NCBI GenBank assembly: GCA_955652265.1
Contig: CATPBD010000122.1
Span: 1 to 10,388, forward strand
DNA from: an uncultured Gemmatimonadaceae bacterium
GTDB taxonomy: Bacteria; Gemmatimonadota; Gemmatimonadetes; Gemmatimonadales; Gemmatimonadaceae
DNA length: 10,388 bases
Reading direction: 5' to 3'
Shown: positions 2,907 through 10,388 of the stretch, piece by piece
Layout of the letters: the number at the start of each line of letters is the position of its first letter
Numbering within the stretch: the first letter of the stretch is position 1
The notes under the pieces: model-generated
Told to the model about the DNA's origin: nothing
The model's database searches: none
What the model saw: the letters and a program-made list of their open reading frames with translations, nothing else
Position numbers and translations under genes: made by a program

Positions 2907-3280
2907 GCACGCTCTCTCTCGAGCGCCACCTCGGCATAGGCGAGGGGGCCCGGGAGCGCGACATTTGGCTTCCGCACGGCGATTCGCACCCGCGTGACCA
3001 AAGGCAGGTCGAGCGCGCGATCAGCGATCCGCTCGCCAACTTCCTCCAGGAAGCTGATATGTCCCTTCGTGACGACCTCGGCGACAAGATCGTAGACGCG
3101 CCGGTAGTCGACGATGTCCTTCGCCGACACCTGGGCGCCTGAACGTCTCACCCAGAGCGACGCATCGACTTCGATCGATTGCGCGATCTCTGCCTCGTGG
3201 GGAAGAACTCCGATGCGTGCATGAAAGCGCATCGCTTTGAGCGTCACCACGTCGTCTTTGTTCGGACCGTCGCTACGCAT
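2903..3280 (-). CDS. folB: Dihydroneopterin aldolase
   Basis: FolB cleaves 7,8-dihydroneopterin to 6-hydroxymethyl-dihydropterin and glycolaldehyde, supplying the substrate of FolK. The 125-residue protein matches the small tunnelling-fold family: LKAMRFHARIGVLPHEAEIAQ with Glu29 in the position of the pterin-anchoring Glu22 of the Staphylococcus aureus enzyme, VDYRRVYDLV with Tyr59 in the position of Tyr54, SFLEEVGERIADRAL, and VRIAVRKPN with Lys104 as the likely catalytic lysine. The ATG at 3280 overlaps the trpA stop by eight bases (ATGCGTAG) and has a strong GGGAGG six bases upstream. A short N-terminal extension (MRSDGPNKDD) precedes the usual start of the fold. Confidence 0.95.
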   Translation of the reverse strand: MRSDGPNKDDVVTLKAMRFHARIGVLPHEAEIAQSIEVDASLWVRRSGAQVSAKDIVDYRRVYDLVAEVVTKGHISFLEEVGERIADRALDLPLVTRVRIAVRKPNVALPGPLAYAEVALERERA

Positions 3281-4070
3281 CCAGCGCCTCCCTCAGGCTC
3301 CGCGTGAGAGCTAGTACAGCCTCCGTACCTTCTTCGGCCGCCCTCACGATCGCACTGCCAACGACAACACCATCGGCGAGCATCCCCACTTTTCTCGCCT
3401 GTGCCGGCGTCGATATTCCGAAGCCAACACATATCGGCAGAGCTGTCGTCGAGCGCAGTCGCGAGATCGTCTCCGGCAGAGAAGCAGCCGTGCTTTCCTG
3501 CAAGCCGGTGACGCCGAGACGACTGATAAGATAAACGAACCCGCTGCCGTGCCGTGCGATCTCCGCCATGCGATCCCGGGGCGTGGTCGGGGCGACCAGC
3601 CTGATGAACGCGAGCGGGCTGTTCCCCAGCCATTCCTCCCGTTTGGGATCTGCGCCGACGGGGACGTCGGTGATCAGGATTCCGCTGGCGCCAGAATCCG
3701 CGGCGCGTGTCAGCGCGCGTTCGCCGGCCGCGAGTATCGGATTCAGGTAACTGAAGAGAACAACCGGTATTGTCAGTTTCGCTCGTTCCACCAGGTCGAG
3801 AACGCGGTCATAGGTCATTCCGTTCTCGAGCGCCCGCTGCGAGCTGGCCTGAATGATGGGTCCGTCGGCAATTGGATCTGAGAAAGGAACTCCGAGCTCC
3901 ACGATGTCGGCGCCCCCTTCCTGCAACGCGTGGAGAGTCTCGAGTGAGCGGGACACATCTGGATGTCCGGCTGTGACGTAACAGACCAGTCCCCGCCGGG
4001 ACTCTCTGTGGAGAGCGTCGAAGCGACGCGCGATTGCGTTAGATGAGGTAGTCGCCGGGGGTGATGCCAT
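3273..4070 (-). CDS. trpA: Tryptophan synthase alpha subunit
   Basis: TrpA cleaves indole-3-glycerol phosphate to indole and glyceraldehyde 3-phosphate and passes indole through a tunnel to TrpB. From the ATG at 4070 it is 265 residues, the family norm. Motifs: YVTAGHPD, VELGVPFSDPIADGP with the catalytic pair Glu58 and Asp69, YLNPIL, ILITDVPV, IRLVAPTT, VYLISRLGVTG (phosphate site region), ICVGFGIST and GVVVGSAIV. A further in-frame ATG exists at 4115, but the 15 extra residues are Arg/Ser-rich and the 4070 start gives the normal A-I-A-R-R-F opening soon after. With that start it overlaps the end of the HD-GYP gene by 32 bases. It is separated from trpB by two unrelated genes, which is unusual because TrpA and TrpB act as one complex. 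It probably still belongs to the same transcript. Confidence 0.96.
   Translation of the reverse strand: MASPPATTSSNAIARRFDALHRESRRGLVCYVTAGHPDVSRSLETLHALQEGGADIVELGVPFSDPIADGPIIQASSQRALENGMTYDRVLDLVERAKLTIPVVLFSYLNPILAAGERALTRAADSGASGILITDVPVGADPKREEWLGNSPLAFIRLVAPTTPRDRMAEIARHGSGFVYLISRLGVTGLQESTAASLPETISRLRSTTALPICVGFGISTPAQARKVGMLADGVVVGSAIVRAAEEGTEAVLALTRSLREALDA
3287..3292 (-). promoter_or_regulatory. Strong ribosome binding site for folB
   Basis: GGGAGG on the minus strand, six bases before the folB ATG and inside the end of trpA. It is the best Shine-Dalgarno sequence I found in the operon, so folB may be initiated independently rather than only by coupling to trpA. Confidence 0.6.
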
Positions 4071-5514
4071 ACCGATCTGGGTCCGCCGTCTTGATGATTG
4101 TGCGCGCGTACTCACCGCCCGCCTCGGGAATCGCGAGGTCTACGACGAGCGGCGGACTGATCCTGTTGCCCTGTGCGTCGCTGATAATCTTAACGATCGG
4201 TCTGGACAATGCTTCCGGATTCGGATTGGACGCCGAGACCACGGCGAGCTCGAACGTGTCGAGGATGACGAGCGTTCCCACCGGATAGATGCCAAGCAGG
4301 TTGATGAAAGCCTTGACGAGGACGGGGTCGAGGCCGCGACGGGGGTTGTCGCGCATCTCCTCGAGCACATCGGATGGAGCCAGCGGTTCAGTCTTGTAGA
4401 CCCGCCTGGAGGTAGCTGCGTCGTACCCGTCCGCGATCGACACGATCTTGCTTAGCAAGCTCACCTGGCGCGGGCGGATGGCCTTGGGGTAGCCGGTAAG
4501 GTCGATCTTCATGTGGTGCTCGTGGCAGACTGTCATCGCACGGTAGGAGAGCTCCTCCTGCTGCCTGCGGAACTGGAAGAGTACGAGAACTCCGAGCCAG
4601 GGATGCGACGCCATCCACTTCCACTCCTCGTCCGTGAGCTCGCCAGACTTCTGCAGAACATCTAGCGGAACGCGTGACTTCCCGATGTCGTGCATCAACG
4701 CCGCCAGTCCAAGCTCGTACAGCTGCAGCTTCGTCATTCCGAGACGGCGGCCGAGCGCGATCGAGAAAATGCACACGTTCACCGAATGGGTAAAAGTGTA
4801 CTCGTCGTAATCGCGGATCGCGGTCAGGCCGATGAGGGAGGTCTCCTCGTTCAGCACCTGGTCGACGATGCCCTGCACCACTCGCTTGATCTTCCTGATG
4901 TTGGGCGTTTTGCCGATGCGCACAGAGTTGATCACGTCCTTCGTTACAGCCACCGACTGCGAGTAAGTGCGGTTGGCGGCGGCTTTCGCTTCTTCGTTGA
5001 ACTCCCTGTCCGTTTGGGTCTCGGTCGGCGCGTCGAGCTGAAAGGTTTCGATTTTCGCGTCTTTCAGTCTGGCAACGATTTCCGTGAAACGCTCAGCCGG
5101 CGAACCCTTCGTTTCGGCGCCGAGAAGAGAGAGCAATACGGTCCAATCCCGCGCGGTTCCCTTCGTGCCAACGTGAATGGCCCCGATGCCGGCTACCTTG
5201 CAAAGCGCCAGGATGTGACCGAAAGTCGCGTAGTTGCTGAGGTCGAGCCTCAGCCGGGTGGAGTTGATGAAGATGAATTCGCCCGAAACGCGAAACTCGA
5301 GCTCTCCTTCCTCGGCGCGCAGAGCCTCCGCGACCTGAGACAGCTCCGCCAGTGTTTTCTGCACCGCGCTGTGCTCGAGAGGATAAAGCTTGATCGCGCG
5401 CAACGCCGCGTAATACGCGATCATGAAGTTTCTTCCGCCGCGGCGAACGTTGGCGCCCGACTGGCCCCCGCTGTCGCTGCGGACGGACTCAGTGACCCCC
5501 TTGGCGGCGGTCAT
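4039..5514 (-). CDS. HD-GYP-family protein with degenerate HHE motif and an extra N-terminal domain
   Basis: This 491-residue protein has three parts. Residues about 29-133 form an N-terminal domain that resembles the start of the preceding HEAT protein. Residues about 235-420 are an HD-GYP domain, the family of c-di-GMP phosphodiesterases: THS with His243, HDIGKSRVPLDVLQKSGELT with His275/Asp276, SHPWLG with His304, HEHHMKIDLTGYP with His333/His334, and IADGYDAATSRR with Asp362/Asp365. Residues about 420-491 form a C-terminal extension, ending in GITPGDYLI, of a kind often seen in HD-GYP proteins. The usual HHExxDGxGYP signature reads HHMKIDLTGYP: Glu is Met and the Gly after Asp is Leu, while GYP and the putative metal ligands are kept. 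Hydrolase activity is plausible but unproven; it could be a c-di-GMP sensor. It starts at an ATGA overlap with the HEAT gene. No signal peptide or membrane segment is evident, so it is probably cytoplasmic. Confidence 0.88.
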   Translation of the reverse strand: MTAAKGVTESVRSDSGGQSGANVRRGGRNFMIAYYAALRAIKLYPLEHSAVQKTLAELSQVAEALRAEEGELEFRVSGEFIFINSTRLRLDLSNYATFGHILALCKVAGIGAIHVGTKGTARDWTVLLSLLGAETKGSPAERFTEIVARLKDAKIETFQLDAPTETQTDREFNEEAKAAANRTYSQSVAVTKDVINSVRIGKTPNIRKIKRVVQGIVDQVLNEETSLIGLTAIRDYDEYTFTHSVNVCIFSIALGRRLGMTKLQLYELGLAALMHDIGKSRVPLDVLQKSGELTDEEWKWMASHPWLGVLVLFQFRRQQEELSYRAMTVCHEHHMKIDLTGYPKAIRPRQVSLLSKIVSIADGYDAATSRRVYKTEPLAPSDVLEEMRDNPRRGLDPVLVKAFINLLGIYPVGTLVILDTFELAVVSASNPNPEALSRPIVKIISDAQGNRISPPLVVDLAIPEAGGEYARTIIKTADPDRYGITPGDYLI

Positions 5515-7211
5515 GTCGCCGCCCCGCGAATCGCCCGGCTGACGGCGTTCCGCACGATGATGTCCTTCTCACCAGCCGCTTTATTCAGCGATTCCATCGC
5601 CTTTGGCGAAGCAATTTTGCCGAGTGCCATCGCCGCGCAGGCGCGAAACTCGGAATCGTCGCGCTTGCCCATGAAACCCTTGGCGTGGAGCACGCTGTCG
5701 AGAAGGGCAATTCCACCATCCCCGGAGAGCAGACCGAAAGCTTCGAAGAACGCCATCTTCTCCGTCAGGTTGCTCTCGCGAAGAACTTTCCCCTTAAGGG
5801 CAGCCTCGACGCGCGGCAGCGCGGCCCGTGCGTTGCGCGCGCCAAGCGCGCGGACGGCGACAATTCGGACCTCGCGATCCTCGTCGCCTAGTGCGCGCTC
5901 CAGCATCTGCATCGCACCGGGGGAACCAATCTCTGTAAGAGCCGTAACCGCCGCGAGGCGCATGTCTGACTCTCCCACGGTCAACAGCTTTCCAAGCGCG
6001 GGGACTGCCGCAGGTGATTTGAGAGCGGCGGCGCGACGGATCGCTTCAACCACCACCGCCTCATCGTCCGAGCCAATCAAACGAATGAGCTCGGCGCTGT
6101 GTGCGGATGCGAGCCTGCCGGCCGCGACCTCGAGCAACATCTTGAGCTGAGGATTGGCGGTGCGACCGATCCAACCAAGGATGGTTTCGAGCGCGCGGGG
6201 TTGAAGAATTCCGAATAGCTCGTCGAGCTCCAGTTGTGGCGCGCGCAGCGGCGAGTCTTCGAGCGCCTGAAGCAGTTGGCCGAGCGGTTTCGGATCGCTC
6301 ATCAATTCGCCAAGCTGGGTCAGCCGCTGCTTCTGCGGCTCGAGGATCTCGGGCGCACGATTGGCGGCGACGCCGGCTTCGCGCAGCAGATACGCAGCGT
6401 TCCTGTACTGCGCGCTCGAGAGCAGTATGAGAAGGAAGTAGTCGAGGAGCCCGCAAATCTCCTCGCGCACGGTAGGGTCCTTGTGCGTCTCGAAGATGTC
6501 CAGCAAAGACGCAACTACGGCCGGCCTTAGATCGGTGGAGAATTCGCGCTTGATCTCGCCCTGCAGGTACTCGACCTCCCGATCGTCGAGGAAGTAAAGT
6601 GTCGAGTCGAAGTCGTCGAGATTTGCGATCGAGGAGTTGGTCGTCTCGAGCCCGGCTTCAGCCTGCGCGGGCGAGAGGATCTTCTCCTTTTGCTCGGCGC
6701 GTTCCATCGATTCGACGCCAGGCCCACCTTCGGCGGTGAGGTCGACGTACTTGTACTGCAGGGTCGCGAATTCGCGCTCCCACATCATTGTGAGCAGATC
6801 GTCGTCGTCGTCCGTGGCCTTGCGAACCCGCTGAAGCAGATCGAAGAATGTCCCCAGCTCTTCTTCCTCGAATCCTTTCAGCATCTTCAGCTCGCGGATA
6901 CCGTCCTTGTAGAGAAGCCACGCAAGGTTGTCGCTAGTCCTCTCCTGTTCGTCCAGAACGACGCGCCCTTCCCACGTGAGCTGCGTCTCGACGATTTGAA
7001 GCTCGAGCTCGTCGGTCTGTTTCCAAATGACGGCGAACGCTTCACGCACCGACTCCAGCGACCGCGCGTGCATGGGGTTGTTGGGAAGGTAGAGCTGGTG
7101 CGCACGAACGGCCTTGACGAAGTACTTCAGCAGCTCGGTGACGTACGCGATGGGAAAGGACGGCTCGTCGAGCTCGTCCTGTGCCGCGCTTGCGGTTGCC
7201 GACGTTGTCAT
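5511..7211 (-). CDS. HEAT-repeat protein of unknown function
   Basis: The function of this 566-residue protein is not recognised. Residues about 24-128 form a mixed alpha/beta N-terminal domain ([24 protein letters not shown]) that aligns with the N-terminus of the next gene's HD-GYP protein. A short acidic run of five Asp follows at 134-138, then a low-complexity linker to about 200. Residues about 226-290 are helical ([21 protein letters not shown]). From about 371 to the end there are about six HEAT-type helical pairs, with markers such as [61 protein letters not shown] and [11 protein letters not shown]. Such repeats usually make protein-binding scaffolds. There is no signal peptide. The ATG at 7211 overlaps the trpB stop as ATGA, and the stop overlaps the HD-GYP ATG in the same way, so all three are probably translated in step. 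It may bind the HD-GYP partner. Confidence 0.87.
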
Positions 7212-8392
7212 TCGGGAAGAAGTCCCATCTCAGTTATTTGCGCGAGCTCCTTGTCGCCCCGCCCGCTGATGCAGATCAGCACGGCGTCGTTCTCTTTCCA
7301 CCGACCCTTGTCTTTGACGACCCAGGCGACCGCGTGTGACGTCTCCAGCGCCGGGATGATGCCCTCCAGCCTGCTGAGTATGCCCAGTCCCTCGACTGCT
7401 TCGTCGTCGGTTACGGAGACGTAGAGCGCCCGTCCGGTGTCCTTCAGGTAGGAGTGCTCGGGGCCGACCCCCGGATAGTCCAGGCCCGCCGAGATTGAAT
7501 GCGCGGGATGGACCTGACCGCTCTCATCCTGCAGCAGGTAGCTCAGTGAGCCATGGAGTACCCCCGGAACACCCCGCTCAAGGGAGGCGGAATGTTCCCC
7601 GCTGTCGAGCCCCCTCCCCGCTGCCTCGACTCCAACGAGCTCGACCGACGAATCGGGGATGAACGGGTGGAAGATCCCCATCGCATTCGACCCACCTCCG
7701 ACACACGCGACTATGCTCGTCGGAAGCCGCCCCGCGGTCTCGAGCATCTGAGCCTTGGCTTCGAGCCCAATCACCGACTGGAAGTCGCGTACCATGCGCG
7801 GATACGGCGCCGGCCCGACCACCGAGCCAATGATGTAGTAGCTGTCAGTTACGTTGGTGACCCAGTCACGTATTGCCTCGCTGGTCGCGTCCTTCAAGGT
7901 CCGGGTGCCGGAACGAACCGGAACCACCGTGGCCCCCATCAGCCGCATCCGAAAGACGTTGAGCTCCTGCCGCCGCATGTCCTCTTCGCCCATGTACACG
8001 GTGCATTCGAGCCCGAAGCGCGCGCACACGGTCGCTACGGCGACTCCGTGCTGCCCGGCCCCGGTCTCCGCGATAATGCGGCGCTTTCCCATTCGCCGAG
8101 CGAGGAGCGCTTGTCCGAGGGCGTTGTTGATCTTGTGCGCCCCGGTGTGGTTCAGATCTTCTCGTTTTAGATAGACGGCGCAGCCGACCTCCTCCGAGAA
8201 CCGCGGCGCGGTGCTGAGCGGTGACGGTCTCCCGACGTATTCCTTGAGCAGTCGGTCCAGCTCGCCAGTGAACTTGGAGTCCCGCATGGCTTCATCGAAC
8301 GCTGCGTCGAGCTCCTCGAGCGCGGGGATGAGCGTTTCGGGTACATATCGTCCCCCGAACGCCCCGAAGCGGTGAACGGTGTCCGCCTGCAC
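7208..8392 (-). CDS. trpB: Tryptophan synthase beta subunit
   Basis: TrpB condenses indole with serine to tryptophan using pyridoxal phosphate. The 394-residue protein is full length and highly conserved: [37 protein letters not shown] with the PLP-binding Lys87, AETGAGQHG with catalytic Glu109, the phosphate-binding loop GGGSNAMG at 232-239, [13 protein letters not shown] at 305-316, and ISGRGDKE at 375-382 with Ser377 near the PLP ring nitrogen. It reads as the standard TrpB1 type that works with TrpA. The start is GTG at 8392, one base after the trpF stop. Its stop overlaps the next gene's ATG (ATGA). trpA does not follow directly but comes two genes later. Confidence 0.98.
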
Positions 8393-9044: not shown

Positions 9045-9891
9045 CGCCCGTCCGTGTTACGCCCGTGAGAGCGCGAACCGCTGCTTCCGGATCGGGCGAG
9101 CCTGACAGCTCGGAGCCTACCAACACCGCATCGGCTCCGGCTGCTGCCACTCGGTTTACGTCTGCAACCGTCTTCACGCCACTCTCAGCTATTGCGACGA
9201 CGCCCTGCGGGATCAACGGAAGGATACGGAGCGCCGTATCGGCGTCGATCTCCAGCGTTTCGAGGTTTCTGTTGTTGACGCCGATCAACCGTGCGTCGAG
9301 CGAGAGAGCAAGGTCCAGCTCGTTGGCGTCGCGCACCTCTACCAGGATCTCGATCCCGACGTCATCCCCCGCTTTGATGAGCTCCTTGAGACGACTCGGA
9401 GGGACCGCGCGTGCAATGACTAGCGCCGCGGAAGCGCCGAGAGACCGCGCCTCGAGGATCTGCACGACGTCGACATGAAAATCCTTCTTGAGCAGTGGAA
9501 TCGGAACTGCCGCGCGCGCCCGCAGGAGATCCTCGTTCGAGCCACCGAACCGCCGAGGCTCGGTAAGAATCGATATCGCCACCGCGCCCCCGTCGTTGTA
9601 GGCGCGAACCTGTTTCTCGAGGTCAAGACGCATGTTGATCTCACCCTTCGACGGTGACGACCTCTTGACCTCAGCGATTACCGCGACCTGGGCGCGCCGC
9701 AGTACCTGGGCAAATGCGGGGGGTCGGCCGAGGCTCTCAATCAGTCTCGTAAGCTCTGCCGCCCGGGGCGTCAGCGCGTCGGCGCGCATGCGCGCTTGGT
9801 CCGTCAGCTCGCCGAGAGTTCCGCTCGGCGGGGTCCAGGCAGAAAGAGCTTGCGCTTCGGTCGATCTTCGGCTAACGTAGGAATTCGGCAA
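9028..9891 (-). CDS. trpC: Indole-3-glycerol phosphate synthase
   Basis: TrpC closes the indole ring, producing the substrate of TrpA. The protein shows all the family's active-site motifs: IAEVKRSSPSKG (Glu74, Lys76), ISILTEPRRFGGS, LLKKDFHVD with catalytic Lys136, EILVEVRD with Glu185, IGVNNRNL with Asn206, AIAESGVKT with Glu236/Ser237, and VLVGSELSGSPDP. From the TTG at 9891 it is 287 residues, slightly longer than the usual 255-270. The next in-frame start is ATG at 9789 (residue 35), which would cut into the normal N-terminal helix region (GTLGELTDQARMRADAL), so TTG is preferred though no good Shine-Dalgarno precedes it. It is the first gene of the minus-strand operon. trpE, trpG and trpD are not in the window. 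Confidence 0.95.
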   Translation of the reverse strand: MPNSYVSRRSTEAQALSAWTPPSGTLGELTDQARMRADALTPRAAELTRLIESLGRPPAFAQVLRRAQVAVIAEVKRSSPSKGEINMRLDLEKQVRAYNDGGAVAISILTEPRRFGGSNEDLLRARAAVPIPLLKKDFHVDVVQILEARSLGASAALVIARAVPPSRLKELIKAGDDVGIEILVEVRDANELDLALSLDARLIGVNNRNLETLEIDADTALRILPLIPQGVVAIAESGVKTVADVNRVAAAGADAVLVGSELSGSPDPEAAVRALTGVTRTGGARKG

Positions 9892-9897
9892 ATGTTC
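9883..9897 (+). promoter_or_regulatory. Possible LexA operator (direct repeat)
   Basis: ATTC-N7-GTTC lies 63 bases before the lexA start, on the edge of trpC. It differs by one base from the GTTC-N7-GTTC direct repeat known as the LexA box in Alphaproteobacteria. TTCGG itself occurs four times (9856, 9867, 9884, 9895), twice with an 11-base period. LexA usually represses its own gene, so an operator is expected nearby, but the motif used in this organism's phylum is not something I can state. Confidence 0.25.
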
Positions 9898-9959
9898 GGT
9901 AGGAAGAAACCGACCGGTACGTTCTCAAAACCAGCCGCGGAAAAGGGACGAAAAGGGAT
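9892..9959. promoter_or_regulatory. Divergent intergenic region between trpC and lexA
   Basis: Only 68 bases separate the trpC TTG and the lexA ATG, so both promoters must lie here or inside the neighbouring genes. On the minus strand TTGAGA at 9928-9923 resembles a -35 box, but no convincing -10 box follows at 16-18 bases. On the plus strand I see no good sigma-70 promoter. An inverted TCGGT/ACCGA pair with eight bases between lies at 9896-9913. There is no room for a classical trp leader peptide and attenuator unless transcription begins inside lexA. Confidence 0.5.
9941..9958 (+). promoter_or_regulatory. Tandem AAAAGGGA, probable lexA ribosome binding site
   Basis: AAAAGGGA occurs at 9941-9948 and again at 9951-9958, just before the ATG at 9960. 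The first copy has a usable but long spacing of 11 bases; the second is only one base from the start codon and too close to work. The purine-rich stretch supports the ATG at 9960 as the lexA start. Confidence 0.4.
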
Positions 9960-10388
9960 ATGTCGCTCACAAAACGCCAGCGGGAGATTCTCACCTACCT
10001 CGCGAACTACTCTGAAGAGCACGGCTACGCGCCAAGCTTCGAGGAGATTGCGACGCAGTTTAACTATAACTCCCTTGCAACTGTCCACGAGCATCTCACC
10101 AATCTCGAGCGCAAGAACTACATCAAGCGCGCGTACAACGAGAGCCGTGGCATCGAGGTCATGCCATCGGACATTCTTCCTCGAGCGATGTCACTGCCGC
10201 AATTGGGCACTGTGCGGCCGGTCTCCCAATCGAGGCGATCCGGGTCCCCGAATCGATCGGAGTGCCGGAGGACCTGGTCCGGCGCAGCGGCAACCACTAC
10301 GTCCTGCGCGTCCGCGGCAACTCGATGATCGACGAACAGATTCGCGACGGCGACTTCGTTAACGTCAACGAGAAAAACACAGCCGATA
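9960..10388 (+). CDS. lexA: LexA SOS repressor, 5' part, with an apparent one-base frameshift (cut by right edge)
   Basis: LexA represses DNA-damage genes and cleaves itself when stimulated by RecA. Residues 1-70 are the winged-helix DNA-binding domain: LTKRQREILTYLANY, HGYAPSFEEIATQF, LATVHEHLTNLERKNYIKR, ESRGIEV. The frame from 9960 reads correctly to LPQLGTV at 10214, then becomes Arg/Ser-rich nonsense and stops at 10328. Moving to the next frame from 10217 restores a LexA latch domain: AGLPIEAIRVPESIG, VLRVRGNSMIDEQIRDGDFV with the catalytic Ser in GNSM. Inserting one G after 10214 would give GTG GCG GCC GGT, that is Val-Ala-Ala-Gly, the self-cleavage site. The deletion is therefore at the cleavage site itself. 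It may be a sequencing error or a real mutation; the rest of the gene is outside the window. It is transcribed divergently from the trp operon. Confidence 0.88.

Follow-up and report, generated by a model that had tools for sequence, protein, structure and literature searches.

A HEAT-repeat and HD-GYP gene pair between trpB and trpA in Gemmatimonadota: a candidate cyclic-dinucleotide signaling module

We analyzed positions 1 to 10,388 of contig CATPBD010000122.1 from an uncultured Gemmatimonadaceae bacterium (assembly GCA_955652265.1, a 1.5-Mb, 55%-complete metagenome-assembled genome); this whole stretch is called the window below. Its minus strand carries a run of genes in the order trpC, trpF, trpB, HEAT, HD-GYP, trpA, folB, folK, panB, panC, and a YqeK-like HD gene, with lexA divergent from the run. 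The subject of this report is the pair of genes between trpB and trpA, the first encoding a HEAT-repeat protein and the second an HD-GYP protein (here, the HD protein). An earlier note on this DNA, made from the sequence alone, had placed the pair there, joined to its neighbors by two ATGA overlaps and one overlap of 32 bases. Coordinates and Pfam and NCBIfam models bore this out (Table 1), and the arrangement is confirmed as real and beyond chance. If trpA starts instead at the GTG at 4115, the overlap between the HD gene and trpA is 77 bases. Among relatives, the HEAT and HD genes overlapped by exactly 4 bases in 30 of 74 pairs, with the starts assigned heuristically.

TABLE 1 Features of the trp locus in the window
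Feature	Positions	Strand	Basis
trpB, tryptophan synthase beta	7208..8392	-	TIGR00263 608 bits, above cut-off
HEAT-repeat protein, 566 aa, first gene of the pair	5511..7211	-	HEAT_2 71.1 bits, cut-off 27.7
N-terminal domain of HEAT protein, ~residues 15-165, homologous to that of HD protein	6717..7169	-	hhalign
HD-GYP protein, 491 aa, second gene of the pair	4039..5514	-	HD_5 62 bits, above cut-off
N-terminal domain of HD protein, ~residues 22-162	5029..5451	-	hhalign
HD-GYP catalytic domain, residues 234-398	4321..4815	-	Pfam profile and alignment to solved HD-GYP structures
C-terminal part of HD protein, ~residues 410-491; its end persists before trpA in deletion scars	4042..4287	-	
trpA, tryptophan synthase alpha, ATG start 4070	3273..4070	-	TIGR00262 233 bits, above cut-off
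trpB/HEAT overlap, 4 bases, ATGA	7208..7211	-	
HEAT/HD overlap, 4 bases, ATGA	5511..5514	-	
HD/trpA overlap, 32 bases, from trpA ATG 4070	4039..4070	-	
Two CCGAA-N6-CCGAA direct repeats, 9884-9899 and 9856-9871	9856..9899	-	Upstream region common to lexA and the trp operon

The two proteins of the pair have related N termini. The Pfam scan found no named domain in the N-terminal region of either protein, and BLASTP between single HEAT and HD sequences gave nothing significant (E 6.2). The homology was visible to profiles only. When profiles were built from the N-terminal 140 to 150 residues (73 rows for HD and 69 for HEAT, the HEAT alignment excluding L038, L062, L065, L074, and L087 by length), hhalign matched the two at 97.6% (E 4.5e-12) over 130 columns; three controls with other regions gave 0.06 to 0.2%. 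The HD profile also matched, weakly, the N termini of HEAT proteins in other phyla. The two marks proposed for a paired module, a homologous N-terminal domain in both partners and adjacency of the genes, are thus both present.

Relatives about 90% identical to the HD protein are annotated "HD-GYP domain-containing protein" in Gemmatimonadaceae (among the best 120 of 5632 matches). Profile comparison matched its HD domain to 5z7c (8.2e-29) and to 4mcw (4e-28), which we take to be PmGH. The equivalents of the metal ligands in the window protein are H243, H275, D276, H304, H333, H334, and D362. These positions were assigned by alignment to 4mcw, using the ligand list of PMC4159591, and 73 HD sequences were scored. 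Equivalents of seven of the eight PmGH ligands are conserved, in 64 to 73 of the 73 sequences each: the four histidines and the aspartate of the HD motif are invariant (73/73), the H189 equivalent is kept in 72, and the D305 equivalent is D in 64 and E in 9. The D183 and K225 equivalents are each found in 71. At the position of PmGH E185, the residue is Y in 59 sequences, H in 7, P in 5, and Q and A in 1 each, and the carboxylate of the E/D-T-G subfamily is missing. In the HHExxDGxGYP signature, HH and GYP are present in 73/73 and D in 70/73; M (65) or L (8) replaces E, and in most sequences (54/73) L replaces the first G, so that the motif mostly reads HHMxxDLxGYP.

Such replacements, with HHM or HHL standing for HHE in every sequence and Y at the E185 position in most, would be consistent with an HD protein that is catalytically weak or dead and acts as a cyclic-dinucleotide receptor or as a structural partner for the HEAT protein. 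We consider this unlikely, given that the seven ligands are conserved together with the D183 and K225 equivalents and that a whole subfamily of HD-GYP proteins with Y or F at the E185 position is described in PMC4159591. Because these residues are kept and E185 is mostly replaced by Y, the HD protein is expected to be an enzyme that belongs to the Y/F subfamily of HD-GYP proteins.

To survey the distribution of the pair, each of the genes was searched for in 198 genomes of the class (E≤1e-60 for the HD ortholog and trpB, E≤1e-15 for HEAT and trpA), and presence tables were compiled by hand. The HD ortholog was found in 123 genomes (10 weaker matches, E 1e-25 to 1e-60, having been dropped from 133), HEAT in 126 (137 at E≤1e-3), trpB in 181, and trpA in 177, one trpA-negative genome being missing from the trpA listing. 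All but 3 of the 126 HEAT-positive genomes also had the HD ortholog. Those three are G101, scored as pair-negative, in which the HEAT gene runs off the contig end, and G117 and G183, which have the deletion scars described below. We then mapped 80 loci by tblastn with the window proteins; these were picked by coordinates and weighted toward other families and exceptions and are therefore not a random sample. In every fetched locus that had both genes (74/74), HD came next after HEAT, no more than 185 bases away and on the same strand.

The complete order trpB-HEAT-HD-trpA was found in 40 of the 80 loci, including two (L073 and L110) in which about 0.5 kb separates trpB from HEAT; in three further loci the trp order is interrupted by contig ends. 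In the genus, four further genomes were sampled (G016, G033, G121, and G164), and by coordinates all have the complete order. A second group of 18 loci, spanning families f1, f2, f3, f6, f7, and f10, has the pair beside lexA with no adjoining trp gene. In these the nearest matched upstream gene is the divergent lexA, 126 to 747 bases away, and a fol, pan, or YqeK-like gene was matched downstream in 14 (in the window, the YqeK-like gene scores 56.5 bits against the YqeK model, under its cut-off of 70.15). The pair has neither lexA nor trp genes within the fetched stretch, which is sometimes short, in eight loci, all of family f4, and five loci are second copies of the pair elsewhere in the genome. 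The remaining six lack the pair; trpB and trpA are adjacent in five (L046, L047, L048, L111, and L112) and about 13 kb apart in the sixth (L113, from G021). G021 is one of the g39 genomes of family f4, most of which have neither GGDEF nor the pair.

Some genomes with trp-free loci have trpB elsewhere (G049 and G106), and six (G066, G113, G003, G040, G055, and G088) gave no trpA or trpB match at the cut-offs used. Eight genomes (G084, G087, G096, G099, G170, G180, G192, and G194) have weaker trpA/trpB matches and a lexA locus without trp genes; in these it looks as if a divergent trp set elsewhere replaced the original. A second draw of 200 genomes of the phylum gave HD matches in 132, and all the matches listed belong to the window's class. 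Since 10 f1 genomes were among those listed with no HD match at 1e-60, loss of the pair within this family is not rare.

The second HEAT-HD pairs are at unrelated loci (L038, L041, L042, L108, and L109, in G063, G140, G190, and G191), indicating that both genes are duplicated or moved together. Both extra HD copies of G191 (family f7) group among f2 sequences in the HD tree, which hints that they were acquired by transfer. In some loci a further gene follows trpA or HD: a protein of the MCP type (GAF plus MCPsignal, about 700 aa) is directly after trpA in L037 (4951-7050) and directly after HD in L056 (10248-12323), a subtilase is there in L072 and L079, and other f1 and f2 loci have gaps of about 2.0 to 2.2 kb at this spot.

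A quick tree of 73 HD sequences (SH-aLRT support only, 18 open forks, L094 excluded for a broken frame) gave 12 changes of family code among 12 groups, when the minimum possible is 11. The trp-flanked state, counted after also excluding L074, L087, L100, and the five second copies, changes 9 times on this tree, including the f4 move. Because the order recurs through the class and the tree follows the family codes, the pair appears to be old and mainly vertical; we read the pattern as vertical inheritance of the pair with the trp genes departing repeatedly. Recent insertion is ruled out by the agreement of the tree with the families and by scars left in place, and on this point the earlier note was right.

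Pairs also occur outside the class. A search of genome contigs with profiles and hidden Markov models beyond the class, from which matches were listed and no census made, found adjacent HEAT-type and HD genes in at least the Nitrospiraceae, Deltaproteobacteria, Acidobacteria (in tandem), Armatimonadetes (in tandem), Omnitrophota (two loci), and one further bacterium. The N-terminal domain was matched in both partners at these loci, in some cases weakly. The two Omnitrophota partners have no HEAT repeats by Pfam, and in the Nitrospiraceae partner (L115) HEAT_2 falls just under the cut-off. At six of these loci, 10 flanking proteins were scanned and none was a trp gene product; they were glucose-6-phosphate dehydrogenase (G6PD), 6-phosphogluconate dehydrogenase (6PGD), OmpH, a KaiC/RadA-like protein, a further HEAT protein, GidA, seryl-tRNA synthetase, a B12/radical SAM protein, glutamate dehydrogenase, and an amidohydrolase. 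The phylum that includes the Nitrospiraceae genome G243 had a HEAT match at E≤1e-20 in 151 of 245 genomes. Among the best 30 loci there, HD adjoins HEAT on the same strand in all 28 that could be tested, and the other 2 stop at a contig end. No trp, lexA, fol, or pan match was found at these 30 loci in flanks of up to 1.5 kb on the upstream side (HD fills the downstream side), and none of the 30 had trpB in the roughly 1.5 kb preceding HEAT. The pair is accordingly a general module, and its location among trp genes is, in this sample, particular to the class.

These results bear on the central proposal of the earlier note, that the pair is made with TrpA and TrpB and either ties cyclic-di-GMP turnover to tryptophan synthase or scaffolds the complex. 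The note had held that conservation of the gene order over a whole phylum would support such a link, and that absence of the pair from the trp locus of close relatives, or its scattering without pattern to unrelated loci, would speak against it. The first expectation was realized in part, in that the order recurs through the class, in half of the fetched loci and with tight overlaps, but the pair also stands without adjoining trp genes in 18. As to the second, the order is kept in the other sampled genomes of the genus, but outside the class the sampled pairs are at unrelated loci, with no trp gene among the flanking proteins scanned or upstream of HEAT in the G243 phylum (upstream side only). 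In addition, trpB and trpA occur without the pair in the five loci named above, and the pair and trpB were not associated across the 198 genomes (trpB in 112/123 pair-positive and 69/75 pair-negative genomes, p = 1.0). Thus, the pair is not kept only together with trpA and trpB; their absences are independent in both directions. We conclude that a functional link to tryptophan synthase is most improbable, and this part of the earlier note is not supported.

A different association was found when other genes were compared by Fisher tests over the same 198 genomes (relatedness was ignored, the genus count below serving as a partial control). GGDEF, the cyclic-di-GMP synthase domain, is present in 123/123 pair-positive genomes versus 33/75 pair-negative genomes (p ∼1e-22), and at least three GGDEF matches are present in 119/123 versus 21/75. 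By genus within family f7, from genus lists compiled by hand, a member with at least three GGDEF matches was found in 13/13 genera with the pair versus 2/10 without it. The suggestion in the earlier note of a link to cyclic-di-GMP is plausible. FliG was also associated with the pair (36/123 versus 5/75, p = 1e-4), as was pilT_fam (123/123 versus 64/75, p = 1.4e-5). The latter says little because pilT_fam is so common in genomes without the pair, and a flagellar function as the general role of the pair was rejected because most pair genomes lack FliG. The relation to GGDEF is one-way: since 21 pair-negative genomes keep at least three matches, the absence of the pair cannot simply be put down to loss of cyclic-di-GMP.

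Where the pair has been lost, remnants may remain. Five genomes of family f7 have a scar between trpB and trpA made of the beginning of HEAT and the end of HD, although little or no HEAT remains in L208. Four scars are single open frames, of 352 aa in L204 (G117), 140 aa in L206 (G147), 77 aa in L207 (G185), and 75 aa in L208 (G104); these start 8 to 11 bases past the trpB stop and end in an xTGA stop compatible with a trpA start that overlaps it. In L048 and L211, which have no remnant of the pair, an ATGA overlap of trpB with trpA is a possible reading. From these loci we infer that translation of trpA is coupled to the upstream reading frame. If each scar had a 1/3 chance of being in frame, at least 4 of 5 would be so with a probability of about 0.045, and retention of the frame is for this reason suggestive only.

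The scars also bear on whether the position of the pair has any meaning. The pair could be a neutral passenger, its order kept only by slow rearrangement of the operon, and the independent absences of pair and trp genes would agree with that. However, the pair holds its spot beside lexA in the 18 loci without trp genes, and four of the five scars are in frame up to trpA; we therefore regard a meaningless position as rather unlikely.

The region upstream of the operon, shared with lexA, contains direct repeats of the form CCGAA-N6-CCGAA (period 11). In all 61 loci with a lexA match, trp-free loci included, at least one lies in the 160 bases preceding lexA, and 50 of the 61 have two or more; random stretches of the same loci had none. 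The two repeats in Table 1 are the only ones in the window and lie between lexA and trpC (in other loci, between lexA and trpC or HEAT). Against a reversed control, a stricter form of the repeat pattern gave 10 versus 3, 8 versus 1, and 4 versus 0 matches in three genomes. The repeats are likely to be the LexA boxes of the Gemmatimonadota; as such they would act on lexA and perhaps on the operon too. Because they overlap the called start of trpC (TTG 9891), the true start is probably further in. The lexA frame itself (window positions 9960-10388) matches LexA for its first 86 residues and departs thereafter, beside the contig end, apparently because of a frameshift or an assembly error.

Divergent lexA and the repeats raise the prospect that the operon, pair included, is regulated by DNA damage and that the pair acts in the SOS response. 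The repeats, however, fit a role confined to lexA autoregulation, they also occur in the five pair-less loci with adjacent trpB and trpA, and the flanks covered in the G243 phylum gave no lexA match. We consider an SOS role very unlikely.

The explanation that we favor, with a probability of roughly 0.6, is that the pair is an ancient two-protein cyclic-dinucleotide phosphodiesterase module kept in place by translational coupling to trpA. On this view it is an obligate, mainly vertical pair of signaling proteins. Comparison of sequences shows the same gene order across phyla, a homologous N-terminal domain in both proteins, a HEAT solenoid in one, and in the other an HD-GYP domain with seven of the eight metal ligands. 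The common N-terminal domains would dimerize, and the HEAT protein would be an adaptor, sensing a signal or binding a target, through which a cyclic-di-GMP (or cGAMP) phosphodiesterase is positioned or switched. Judging from its distribution, the pair probably came between trpB and trpA in the ancestor of the class or early in the class. It would have been retained because the HD stop overlaps the trpA start and translation of trpA is coupled to the end of the frame before it, which would make clean removal of the pair costly. The overlaps fit such an operon lock on trpA better than they fit a function in common with tryptophan synthase. A fuller version, that the HEAT and HD-GYP proteins form a dedicated hetero-complex for cyclic-dinucleotide control across several phyla, which in Gemmatimonadota became locked into the trp operon via trpA and is lost by in-frame deletions that spare the coupling, is tentative, and we put it at somewhat less than even odds.

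Several points weigh against this explanation. The replacement of HHE in all 73 HD sequences and the prevalence of Y at the E185 position mean that the activity may be altered. The pair-negative genomes with at least three GGDEF matches include the scar genomes G104, G117, G183, and G185, and because FliG and pilT_fam are also associated with the pair, GGDEF is its strongest correlate and not its sole one. The frame result comes from only five scars, one of which (L205, from G183) is out of frame, and the deletions, which are likely to be independent given their differing junctions, are not proven to be so. Parsimony on the HD tree yields a number of changes and no direction. Finally, the long-kept order could also reflect weak selection for coexpression.

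If the explanation is correct, a widespread two-protein cyclic-dinucleotide module gains a defined architecture, and the trp locus offers a natural experiment in how an operon holds a gene pair, in which graded deletions show what trpA needs. The case also cautions that operon position alone can mislead about function, even when the overlaps are tight and conserved through a class; the pair itself is a more interesting object than the proposed tie to amino acid synthesis.

We found no description of a HEAT/HD-GYP pair in the open-licence literature searched, which is not proof that none exists. Non-trp genes between trpB and trpA have been reported before (PMC2395257); the function of those genes was described as unknown, whereas the two genes found here between trpB and trpA are defined, recur through the class, and erode in place. 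Bacterial HEAT-repeat adaptors (HEAT_2 and the NblB and CpcE/F models) share with the window protein the HEAT solenoid, which is in its C-terminal half. However, the window protein is far under the NCBIfam cut-offs for these adaptors (31.8 versus 300 bits for NblB), and it adds the Pfam-unnamed N-terminal domain in common with its HD partner. The solved HD-GYP phosphodiesterases (4mcw; 5z7c, a 3'3'-cGAMP-specific phosphodiesterase; 4r8z; and 3tm8, Bd1817) resemble the HD proteins of the pair in profile, in seven of the eight PmGH ligands, and in the GYP found in 73/73. In contrast to those enzymes, the HD proteins of the pair mostly have HHMxxDLxGYP and Y at the E185 position, and they have N- and C-terminal parts of their own and a HEAT partner with which the N-terminal domain is shared.

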